14,579 nt of DNA from an uncultured Candidatus Saccharibacteria bacterium (lineage in GTDB: Bacteria; Patescibacteriota; Saccharimonadia; Saccharimonadales; Saccharimonadaceae). This document shows positions 11,644-14,579 of the stretch, one piece after another. Where the stretch lies: assembly GCA_948511255.1 (NCBI GenBank), contig CAOQNC010000008.1:1-14579 (forward strand). Direction: 5' to 3'. A program made the translations under genes and the position numbers. Positions within the stretch are counted from its first letter, which is position 1. The number at the start of each line of letters is the position of its first letter. The notes under the pieces are model-generated. The model was not told where the DNA came from. It ran no database searches and worked only from the letters and a program-made list of their open reading frames with translations.

Positions 11644-14076
11644 ATGGATTTGATTTTGCGAGGTCTCAACCCGCCTCAGGAGGAAGCAGTCAAAACGCTC
11701 GAGGGCCCGGTTTTGGTTCTCGCTGGTGCTGGCTCCGGCAAAACCAAAGTTCTCACGCATCGCATTGCAAATCTTATCATCCACGGCACTCGCCCCGACC
11801 AGATTCTCGCCGTCACTTTTACGAACAAAGCCGCGAAGGAAATGCGCGACCGCCTTTGGAAACTTCTCCGCACGAGCGACGACCAGCCTCTCGAAGTTCC
11901 TCGCAACTTTATGCCCTACATGGGAACGTTTCACGGCATTTGTGTCCGTATCCTTCATATCGAAGCTGACGCCGCCGGCATTGACCGCAACTTCACAATT
12001 TATGATTCCGAAGACCAGCTCACCCTCATCCGTCGCATCATGCGCGCCATGAATATCGCGAACGATAAAACTCTCACCCCGAAAGCCGCTCACGGCATGA
12101 TCAGCCATTGGCAAAATCTCGGCATGAGCCCTGCCGACGCTCGCCGCGAAGCCTACTACCCGAACCAGAAGCGCGCCACCGAAATCTACGAGCAATACGA
12201 ACGCGAAAAAACCGCCGCTTCCGCCCTGGATTTTGACGACTTGTTGACGAAAACTGCTGAACTTTTTGCGAAAAATCCCGAAGTTCGCGCCAAGTGGCAA
12301 CGCAAGTTCCGCCACATCCTGATCGACGAATATCAGGATACAAACATCGTCCAGTACAAGTTAATTAAGTTGCTCGTGAACGAAGACCGCAACATCTGCG
12401 TTGTCGGCGACGACTGGCAGTCGATTTATTCGTGGCGCGGCGCCGATTTTACAAATATCCTTAACTTCGAGCGCGATTTTCCCGGCGCAAAAGTTATCAA
12501 ACTCGAGCAAAACTATCGCAGCACCGGCAACATTCTCGCCGCTTCGCAAAAAATCATCAACCAGAACAAAACCCGCACCGAGAAGACTTTGTTCACTGAA
12601 TCTGGTCAAGGCGATCCGATTACGATTGAAGGTCTTACTGATGAAACCGCCGAAGCGAATTACGTCGCTCGCCAGATTACCCAGCTGAAATCCGCCGCCC
12701 ACCTTGCCTCTACTCATAATTCCGCCGCAGGGTCCGCAAAAACTTCTCATCGCACCGGCAGCTTCAGCGATTTCGCGATTCTTTACCGCACCAACGCCCA
12801 GTCTTACGCCTTTGAAAAAGCCTTCATCGCCGCCCGCATCCCCTACAAAATCATCGGTGGAGTCCGCTTCTACGACCGCAAAGAAGTCAAAGACGTCCTC
12901 GCCCTTCTCAAACTCATCGTCAATCCGGTCGACCGTGTTAGCTTCGAGCGGGTCGTGAAGAATCTACTTTCCGGCGTCGGCCCCGCTTCGCTTGAGAAAG
13001 TTTTCACTTATCTCGACGAACACTCCGAGGCTAATCTCGCCGACCTCCAGGGCCTCCTCGACACCTCCACCCTTTCTCCGAAGGCTCGTAATTCCGTCGC
13101 TCATGTTTCCAACTTTCTCCACGATATACGAAACGCCGAAGGGAATGACGACGGCGTCGGTCTTGTCCGCGAAACCACCGACCAGCCTACCGACCAATCC
13201 GCCTCCGTCACGACTATCCCTACCCCAGAAATCGTCGAGCGCATTATTAAATATTTTGATCTCCCCACAATTTTTCATAGCGACACGCCCGACGGCGAAG
13301 AGCGTATGCAAAACCTCGAAGTTCTCGCCTCAAACTCCAGTATCTATGAAACTCTCGAAGAGTTTCTCGCCGCCGCCGTGCTCCTCAGCTCTGCCGACGA
13401 AAGTGCAGGGAATGACGTCGTTTCGCTCATGACTCTCCATGCCGCGAAAGGCCTCGAGTTCCCGGTTGTCTTTATGGTCGGCATGGAAGACGGGCTTTTC
13501 CCGAGCAGTCGCTCTGACAACTCCGAAGAAGAACTCGAGGAAGAGCGTCGTCTCGCTTATGTCGGTATGACCCGCGCCATGGAAGACCTCTTCCTGACTT
13601 TCGCGAACTCCCGCTTTAGCTTCGGCGGTCGCAGTTATAATATGCCGTCTCGCTTCTTGCTTGAGCTCGGTTATAATCCTTACGGTTCCGGCGAATTCGG
13701 TGACAGCGGAGTTTTCGGCGTCGACCAGGGTAGCCTTGGCGTCTCGCCCGAGTTCTCCGTTAGCGCTCCGAGCAATTCCAGCTTTGGCAGTCTCGGTATT
13801 CTCGGCGGCGATCCTGACGGCGAGTTCGGCACACCTGCTACGCCCAGCCCCGAACCCAACATCACCGACCCTTATGCTCCGCGCCGTCGCCCGCGCCAGA
13901 CCTTCGCCTCCGACTCTACGCCCCGTCGCGCCGCATCCGCCTCGAAACTCTCCAGCCTCACTCAAAATCGTTTTCCCGAGCAAAATCGCTCCAGCTCCTC
14001 CTCGACCGACGTTTTCGATGATTTCGGCGCAAGTGACATCGACCCCTTCCCAGAAGACGTCCCGGTTTTTGAATAA
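11644..14076 (+). CDS. uvrD: ATP-dependent DNA helicase, UvrD/PcrA type (SF1)
   Basis: 3'-5' helicase of DNA repair and replication restart. All SF1A motifs are visible: Q-motif LNPPQEEAV, Walker A GAGSGKT (residues 28-34), Ia TFTNKAAKEM (58-67), motif II IDEYQDT (227-233), motif III VGDDWQSIYSWRGAD (254-268), motif IV QNYRST (289-294), motif V TLHAAKGLEFPVVF (about 597-610), motif VI RRLAYVGMTRA (about 636-646). It has 810 aa. Compared with UvrD/PcrA there is a Ser/Ala/Thr-rich insert around residues 345-375. The last 130 or so residues are low-complexity Gly/Ser/Pro with a basic patch (APRRRPRQTF) and an acidic end (DVFDDFGASDIDPFPEDVPV). The usual Tudor-like RNA polymerase-binding end is not seen. 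UvrD and PcrA cannot be told apart here. Confidence 0.93.
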   Translation: MDLILRGLNPPQEEAVKTLEGPVLVLAGAGSGKTKVLTHRIANLIIHGTRPDQILAVTFTNKAAKEMRDRLWKLLRTSDDQPLEVPRNFMPYMGTFHGICVRILHIEADAAGIDRNFTIYDSEDQLTLIRRIMRAMNIANDKTLTPKAAHGMISHWQNLGMSPADARREAYYPNQKRATEIYEQYEREKTAASALDFDDLLTKTAELFAKNPEVRAKWQRKFRHILIDEYQDTNIVQYKLIKLLVNEDRNICVVGDDWQSIYSWRGADFTNILNFERDFPGAKVIKLEQNYRSTGNILAASQKIINQNKTRTEKTLFTESGQGDPITIEGLTDETAEANYVARQITQLKSAAHLASTHNSAAGSAKTSHRTGSFSDFAILYRTNAQSYAFEKAFIAARIPYKIIGGVRFYDRKEVKDVLALLKLIVNPVDRVSFERVVKNLLSGVGPASLEKVFTYLDEHSEANLADLQGLLDTSTLSPKARNSVAHVSNFLHDIRNAEGNDDGVGLVRETTDQPTDQSASVTTIPTPEIVERIIKYFDLPTIFHSDTPDGEERMQNLEVLASNSSIYETLEEFLAAAVLLSSADESAGNDVVSLMTLHAAKGLEFPVVFMVGMEDGLFPSSRSDNSEEELEEERRLAYVGMTRAMEDLFLTFANSRFSFGGRSYNMPSRFLLELGYNPYGSGEFGDSGVFGVDQGSLGVSPEFSVSAPSNSSFGSLGILGGDPDGEFGTPATPSPEPNITDPYAPRRRPRQTFASDSTPRRAASASKLSSLTQNRFPEQNRSSSSSTDVFDDFGASDIDPFPEDVPVFE

Positions 14077-14107
14077 TAACCATAATAATTGGAGATCGGG
14101 CACAATA

Positions 14108-14290
14108 AAGGCAGCGAACGGAGAAGCCGTTGTTCCGATTGTTGTTGTTGGACGGACGAATATCGCTGGTGTCGCCGAAGATGAGGTTGTAGGCGTTGCT
14201 GCTGTTAGAGTTTGGCGTAGAAGACCAGTAGTAGCCGTAGTTGCCGGCGTTGTTGAACAGGTTGCTGGTATTCTGATTGACGTTGCCGCC
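14108..14290 (-). other. Asn-codon-rich C-terminal YWSST/NGFSVRC domain segment: candidate DGR template repeat or gene remnant
   Basis: On the minus strand 61 codons are open and contain NNAGNYGYYWSSTPNSN, SSNAYNLIF and NNNNRNNGFSVRCL. This is the C-terminal end of DUF1566/FISUMP-like (C-type-lectin-like) domains. There is no start codon or ribosome site, a TAA lies in frame at 14297-14299, and the usual N-terminal part of the domain is missing. 17 of 61 residues are Asn, 15 of them in the second half of the domain or its first loop and mostly as AAC. An isolated, AAC-rich domain end is what a DGR template repeat looks like. No reverse transcriptase is inside the window; a decayed gene is the main alternative. 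Confidence 0.5.
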
Positions 14291-14313
14291 CCTCGATTAT
14301 TATCGACGGCGGC
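14285..14313. repeat. Stem-loop at the edge of the Asn-rich segment
   Basis: GCCGCC (14285-14290) pairs with GGCGGC (14308-14313), and TCGAT (14293-14297) with ATCGA (14302-14306), leaving a 4-base loop and a small internal bulge. No T-run follows, so it is not a standard terminator. It marks the 5' edge of the Asn-rich segment. Confidence 0.55.
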
Positions 14314-14539
14314 CTAGCTCTGCTACCTATCTTGGCTAGATACTTTTCAGTCTAATCGTAAACGAGCCGAAGAAGCCTCTTTATCTTTCATCTCGCCATA
14401 GCGAGCCAGAAACTCCAGTCTAAGGCCATTGCTATCATGCAGCGCCAAAGAGGACTTCGCGATCTCCAGAAAAGAACTCAATCAAGCCGGAGCTGTCAGC
14501 CCGAGGCGTGACCTCATTCCCGTAGGTTCTTATGCCTAC
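14314..14539 (-). ncRNA. Candidate structured RNA or leader upstream of the Asn-rich segment
   Basis: From the predicted start (near 14539) the minus-strand RNA would begin with a hairpin (GTAGG/CCTAC, 8-base loop), then GAGG/CCTC (14503-14515), and a tetraloop hairpin CTCGC/GCGAG (14392-14405). No open frame longer than about 45 codons exists. A 44-residue helical stretch (TTG at 14481 to TGA at 14347, including SSFLEIAKSSLALHD and EFLARYGEMKDKEASSA) could be a piece of an Avd-like helical protein, or chance. It does not match tmRNA, 6S, RNase P or SRP RNA as far as I can see. Together with the segment at 14108-14290 it could be one transcript. Confidence 0.3.
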
Positions 14540-14545
14540 AAAATC

Positions 14546-14554
14546 ATTATAGCA
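14546..14554 (-). promoter_or_regulatory. Extended -10 box facing the Asn-rich segment
   Basis: Minus strand TGCTATAAT, with TATAAT at 14551-14546 and no -35 at the right distance. The same box style drives the leaderless core genes. Its predicted start falls at the first base of a hairpin. In another minus frame the last ten codons (EEMVRRMLVL) of a possible gene beyond the right edge end in a TAA at 14549-14547. Confidence 0.4.
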
Positions 14555-14579
14555 CTAGCATCCGGCGCACCATCTCCTC

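Follow-up and report, generated by a model that had tools for sequence, protein, structure and literature searches.

A textbook diversity-generating retroelement (DGR) has one template repeat (TR) beside its reverse transcriptase (RT), and the msr-msd RNA of retrons combines a folded 5' part, a 3' template part and paired ends. In the DGR of Bordetella phage BPP-1 (brt, avd, TR and VR), according to the excerpt of PMC12875486, the RT-Avd complex is recruited by a folded RNA, the spacer located 3' of the TR. Systems with several templates are described in the excerpt of PMC6642488, which gives two TRs for the DGR of Stenotrophomonas sp. SKA14 and six for that of Pseudomonas costantinii, the latter being called atypical, with few A-to-N changes. 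For Thiohalocapsa PB-PSB1, the excerpted text of PMC10907252 reports nine DGR loci in four classes, each with one complete locus, and DGRs are described as frequent in CPR bacteria in part of PMC8144416.

We analyzed a stretch of 14,579 nucleotides from an uncultured Candidatus Saccharibacteria bacterium (hereafter the window), the minus strand of which, in our assessment, quite probably carries a template-RNA gene of a trans-acting, multi-template DGR, with a folded domain 5' of the template and paired RNA ends. What is new is that many templates lie unlinked to the RT and that the folded RNA domain is placed on the 5' side of the template. The likeness to BPP-1 lies in the RT, by its best PDB match (8ub7, which we take to be the Bordetella phage DGR RT), in a non-coding template with AAC-rich codons and in mismatches at template adenines among the window's relatives. 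Unlike in BPP-1, the window RNA has a covarying domain 5' of the template, with which the template 3' end can pair, most of the family's many templates lie at a distance from the RT, and the RT is neighbored by a 301-aa gene without family match. The window RNA resembles retron msr-msd RNA in its folded 5' part, 3' template and paired ends, but the associated RT is not retron-like by its best match and the window template encodes a protein end. The window family shares with the multi-TR DGRs of PMC6642488 the presence of more than one TR per system, whereas the excerpt of that paper makes no mention of a dispersed family of template RNA genes that bear promoters and conserve a fold. It shares with PB-PSB1, as excerpted, the many DGR parts per genome, but the window's clade has one RT with at least 8-15 templates, in six genomes. 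Among the titles and abstract openings retrieved from the literature, we found no dispersed template family.

Layout of the predicted RNA gene

The sequence-only reading of the window had singled out a minus-strand stretch at 14108-14290 as a possible template. This stretch is stop-free, its 61 codons translate into the end of a FISUMP-type domain (GGNVNQ...NGFSVRCL), and 17 of them encode asparagine (14 AAC and 3 AAT), as that reading had said; for comparison, the adjoining pcrA-like gene has 40 Asn in 810 codons. The other local features that it had listed are also in place, with an in-frame TAA TAA immediately upstream of the open stretch on the minus strand, no start codon or ribosome site before it as judged by eye, the stem-loop TCGATAATAATCGA at its edge (14293-14306) and a promoter-like TATAAT box at 14546-14551 on the minus strand. 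The feature itself is real and was drawn too narrowly: the cassette spans 14091-14293 and the whole gene 14091-14554. It is more than chance, since 14000-14500 is 97% identical (486/501) to contig C32 of G001, the closest of the genomes compared, and the cassette recurs elsewhere in that genome. G001 is a MAG of Candidatus Saccharibacteria, 75% complete (G034 is the same assembly). This layout points to an RNA gene on the minus strand at 14091-14554, made of a box, a folded 5' domain, a spacer and a 203-nt cassette, with the following features:

14546-14554, minus strand: extended -10 box TGCTATAAT and predicted start of the RNA gene, with a TATAAT-like box at the same place in aligned family members
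14371-14551, minus strand: conserved 5' RNA domain including the box, as covered by covariance model R1
14522-14539, minus strand: first hairpin, GTAGG..CCTAC (helix 1, with 100% of alignment cells paired and 3/4 pairs changed on both sides)
14460-14467, minus strand: GGAGATCG, proposed 5' strand of a closing helix, from the minimum-energy fold and from covariation with the 3' strand between species
14372-14458, minus strand: sub-domain GAAG.. / ..CTTC with an inner hairpin (helix 4, 100% of cells paired, 4/6 pairs changed on both sides; helix 6, 91.9% of cells paired, 7/7 pairs changed on both sides)
14293-14306, minus strand: stem-loop TCGATAATAATCGA, with a similar one in the G001:C32 orthologue only, and unrelated sequence at this place in the other aligned copies
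14091-14293, minus strand: template cassette, AGGGGCGGC ... TGCCCGATCTCC, bounded by the limits of similarity between G001 copies
14105-14293, minus strand: codon-like part, RGGNVNQ..SVRCLY, which contains 14108-14290 and whose non-adenine columns vary mostly at codon position 3
14091-14098, minus strand: CGATCTCC, proposed 3' strand of the closing helix, from the alignment of G001 copies and the minimum-energy fold

From 23 aligned 5' domains, 27 pairs were predicted, of which 22 are changed on both sides, and 93.1% of alignment cells are paired, compared with 72.6% after shuffling. Covariation reached 0.700, against 0.287 for shuffled alignments (0/500 shuffles as high) and a maximum of 0.190 for slid structures; derivation of the structure from the same alignment and the relatedness of the sequences both favor this result, and the gap is large nonetheless. 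All 23 domains have a TATAAT-like box in the same position, though this box had partly served to select them. R1 matched the window at 14371-14551 with 128.8 bits (E-value 2.2e-36), the window being one of the 23 sequences on which R1 was trained.

In the minimum-energy fold of the window, the last 8 nt of the cassette pair with GGAGATCG. The two strands of the putative closing helix change together between species, being GGAGATCG/CGATCTCC in genes of the window type, AAAGATCG/CGATCTTT in G057 and G060 and GGAAGATCG/CGATCTTCC in G014. When 12 TRs were examined for complementarity between 5' and 3' parts, helices of at least 7 bases were found in 5 of them (combined p 1.2e-4, with plain base shuffles, a hand-chosen region 90-230 nt upstream and the borders of L065 and L067 moved by hand). 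Overall, the fold of the window RNA is of ordinary stability (z -1.12, with 16 of 100 shuffles as stable). In Rfam release 15, only tRNAs scored above the gathering score in the 8 sources searched, and the best sub-threshold matches within 14050-14579 had E-values of 4 and 4.5.

The template family and its cassettes

Where a single template had been envisaged, the window copy turned out to be one of a family. G001 holds 8 template genes, located on C32 (the orthologue), C1 (twice), C6, C16, C20, C36 and C40. The seven further non-genic cassettes are 81-88% identical, start with AGGGGCGGC and end with TGCCCGATCTCC, and upstream of each G001 copy we found a TATAAT box, a hairpin, GGAGATCG, the GAAG..CTTC sub-domain and a spacer. 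Ectopic retro-insertion was considered as an origin of the G001 copies and dropped, as each carries its own box and 5' domain. Within genes of G001, the cassette matched the end of one on C31 (79%) and, weakly (69%), a different one on C1.

When named genomes were searched with an exact pattern, 12 stretches were found, in the G001 MAG, in a second Saccharibacteria MAG, CANAUU (where a single contig of 5.6 kb has six of the matches), in bacterium D16-76 and in Acutalibacter sp. 1XD8-33; the same search on viral contigs yielded one match. Using R1 with stricter filters and up to 15 scored candidates per genome, so that copy numbers are lower bounds, we found matches in at least 14 of 174 genomes of the genus: at least 15 copies in G163, 12 in G057, 10 each in G058 and G148, 9 in G041, 8 in G001, 2 in G114 and 1 in each of seven other genomes. 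All of the at least 10 copies of G058 (the CANAUU genome, also G033) lie on two contigs, and the templates of G057, G148 and G163 are scattered over many contigs. Related species carry at least 8-15 template genes, the majority of them not located near the RT of the clade.

We compared 20 distinct window-type cassettes (leaving out L078, which equals L058, and not counting L052). Among their non-adenine columns, codon position 3 is variable in 35 of 57 cases versus 18 of 60 for positions 1 and 2 together (p 6e-4), and the codon part contains only triplet indels that keep the frame, as expected if the cassette is read as protein after being copied into a gene. A codon-like constraint is kept in the cassettes, though they are apparently untranslated; one copy has an in-frame TAG. 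Adenine columns are more variable than others among the cassettes themselves (45/57 versus 53/117), and this higher variation among templates would also fit rewritten copies. Between the window and its G001:C32 orthologue, the cassette differs at 2 of 203 sites and the 5' domain at 6 of 258.

These data bear on whether the cassette is a mere 3' fragment left by the breakage of an ordinary gene of the FISUMP (DUF1566-like) type. It does encode the same protein end as FISUMP genes, and such genes are numerous, 13 of the 22 protein matches in the same assembly (G034) lying in open frames of 267-559 aa; for the 8 non-genic G001 copies, the open frames span 100-209 aa, and an internal stop is present in two. 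Breakage is nevertheless hard to reconcile with eight copies that have identical borders and upstream RNA parts, with the covariation of the 5' domain and with a frame kept by triplet-only indels across the 20 cassettes, and we regard it as highly improbable.

Reverse transcriptase, target gene and proposed cycle

The sequence-only reading had placed an RT beyond the right edge. No RT was found adjoining this copy: the window continues for 25 bases after the promoter box, its orthologue G001:C32 has no RT in the 417 bases by which it extends further, and the only RVT_1 match of G001 is on C31. Given that G001 is 75% complete, an RT further out than 417 bases is possible. The RT on C31 scored 37.1 bits against RVT_1 (cut-off 29.6) and matched the PHROG reverse transcriptase profile with an E-value of 2.9e-75. 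Its best PDB match was 8ub7 (4.9e-24), with retron-type chains at 5e-5, and it reached 34.3 bits against the NCBIfam profile retron_St85_RT, far below the cut-off of 235; we called it DGR-like by this best PDB match, and grouped its relatives by identity. A different retroelement RNA, for instance a retron-like one with captured FISUMP sequence, would explain why a folded 5' part, a 3' template and paired ends resemble retron RNA. We give this explanation very little credence, considering that the RT matches 8ub7 far better than retron-type chains and that TRs whose VRs are A-biased have a related RNA upstream of them.

RVT_1 matches were present in 13 of 30 relatives. Searching 147 genomes with the G001 RT, we identified nine with an RT 66-100% identical over most of its length, four of these having stops within the aligned stretch, perhaps beyond the end of the protein. 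R1 matches are present in eight of these nine genomes, and the ninth, G075, had none among the matches listed. One template lies directly downstream of the RT in G060, G114 and G163. On the RT contigs of G001 and G033, R1 found no template and another gene follows the RT, this gene having an NYN domain in G033. The 301-aa neighbor of the RT had no match in Pfam, NCBIfam or PHROGs and none above chance in the PDB. As a side observation, NYN-domain genes occur on either side of the G033 RT locus (L159, 8487-9140 and 5062-5700), and an NYN-like gene, recognized by eye, is next to the template on an IMG/VR record (L164, 621-1265).

The RT-linked gene on C31, which is cut by the contig end, scored 29.7 against Fib_succ_major, below the cut-off of 33.9. 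Compared with the template consensus, its end (a truncated VR) is changed at 22 of 54 adenines versus 9 of 109 other sites; template copies, each compared with the others, are changed at 4-15 of 52-54 adenines and at 8-13 of 106-111 other sites. By this comparison, the RT-linked FISUMP gene end has lost adenines relative to the copies, and its nine non-adenine differences imply that no known template is its direct parent. We count the loss of adenines, the codon-position bias of the cassettes and the few differences between the window cassette and its orthologue as three signs of use as templates; the missing direct parent and the higher variability of adenine columns among the cassettes speak against it. 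A second copy with mismatches at template adenines only, as the sequence-only reading envisaged, was not found, the RT-linked VR being the closest and cut short by the contig end. The FISUMP genes of G034 (= G001) and G033 (23 loci, 18 ends extracted by pattern) included no adenine-only VR in comparisons with templates from all genomes, beyond those of the same genome, and L139 matched none of the templates.

Within the genus, 22 loci were scanned and 13 TR/VR pairs were used, in which the A-rich side was taken as the TR and 244 of 261 mismatches, summed over pairs, are at TR adenines. We left out the long L037 repeat, the 14 mismatches of which show no adenine bias, as well as those repeats of L054, L057, L061, L063, L064, L066, L067 and L068 that lack such a bias. 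R1 detected the domain upstream of TRs from which it was not built at 3 of the 13 loci, namely L065 (E-value 5e-14; 13/13 VR mismatches at TR adenines), L071 (1e-8; 15/17) and, weakly, L066 (0.0044; 17/20), and did not detect it upstream of the other 10 TRs. The window cassette is very probably a DGR template repeat, because it is AAC-rich, FISUMP-like and apparently untranslated and has the same layout as the TR of a relative with an adenine-only VR. The earlier proposal of a TR is thus borne out for layout, AAC content and apparent lack of translation, and is left without the adjoining RT and the adenine-only partner.

In the cycle that we propose, the RNA would be made from its own promoter and the RT would bind the 5' domain in trans, using it as a handle. 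The closing helix would hold the 3' end of the template where copying starts, the RT would misread adenines while copying the cassette, and the cDNA would replace the variable end of the RT-linked FISUMP surface-protein gene. Several templates may feed this one target, combining template switching with adenine mutation. We see about even chances for a broader picture, a library DGR, in which one RT and 8-15 or more promoter-bearing templates of retron layout per 0.7-1.2 Mb genome can rewrite the same surface-protein end, diversity arises both from switching between stored templates and from mutation at adenines, and conjugative elements of other bacteria also spread templates that have no RT. 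If true, the unlinked template family would add cassette switching, via RNA, to point mutation; other variable surface proteins are switched by silent cassettes. The covarying 5' domain is also a candidate means by which DGR RTs that lack a recognizable Avd locate their template and prime on it. Since cultured Saccharibacteria grow attached to other bacteria, rapid change in a lectin-like surface protein may play a part in how hosts are recognized.

Solo copies and copies on mobile DNA

G014 contains 47 matches to its own TR. Loci L171-L199 of this genome hold dozens of dispersed solo VR-like copies, mostly non-genic, with the common 5' flank TCTCCTATATATC. In the 29 loci read, among which two copies occur twice, TR adenines account for 557 of 696 mismatches, and for all of those in the three best copies. 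Most copies read either have an in-frame stop within about 20 codons upstream or look non-genic, and none shows the RNA domain in the part that was aligned. G057 and G148 also hold solo copies without the 5' domain, sharing the 3' flank CTTAGTACTGTATTAG. When 23 of these were compared with the best template of the same genome, 385 of 1253 mismatches were at adenines, with more than half at adenines in 3 of the 23 copies, a bias so weak that these solo copies are not fresh products of those templates.

The copies of the window family might likewise be recipients, solo variable repeats rewritten by a DGR and not templates. Copies of this kind, changed mostly at TR adenines, abound in G014, and in the window family, too, variation is higher in adenine columns than in the others. 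We consider this reading improbable: the G014 solo copies lack the 5' RNA domain that the window family has, no more than 2 of 203 sites distinguish the window cassette from its orthologue, and it is the C31 gene that is adenine-poor relative to the copies, not vice versa.

Template copies were also found in D16-76 (four plus one) and 1XD8-33 (two), near a tyrosine recombinase and a conjugative coupling protein, the latter below NCBIfam cut-offs in 1XD8-33; the D16-76 contig with the single copy also has hrcA and dnaK. Matches of the G001 RT in these two genomes are weak (at most 35%). There is a slim chance that the templates are a relic or passenger family, spread by mobile elements and no longer used. 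That two isolate genomes with no close RT carry them on DNA resembling conjugative elements would be explained in this way, as would the in-frame TAG in one copy and the lack of an adenine-only VR among the 18 FISUMP ends and the RT-linked end. Disuse fits poorly, however, with diverged copies that keep compensatory changes, the box and the closing helix, with the codon-like constraint on the cassettes and with the co-occurrence of templates with one RT clade. A template-RNA gene serving an RT in trans is the reading that we retain.

Several further loci were noted. RT-free templates lie on conjugative-element-like DNA beside a tyrosine recombinase in L152 (9764-12186, D16-76), L154 (9090-9992, 1XD8-33) and L164 (1-3719, IMG/VR), and the IMG/VR record also has a FISUMP gene. 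L058 (G001:C6) is 99.7% identical over 7 kb to L153, a contig of the D16-76 isolate, so that the G001:C6 copy, one of eight, may be on a misbinned or transferred contig. In L162 (G031:C44) of D16-76, a weak relative of the RT is found among phage baseplate-like genes and perhaps belongs to a prophage DGR. Finally, L277 and L269 of G148 contain clusters of five and four solo VR-like copies, respectively, in both orientations and each then followed by CTTAGTACTGTATTAG; these clusters look like silent-cassette arrays.
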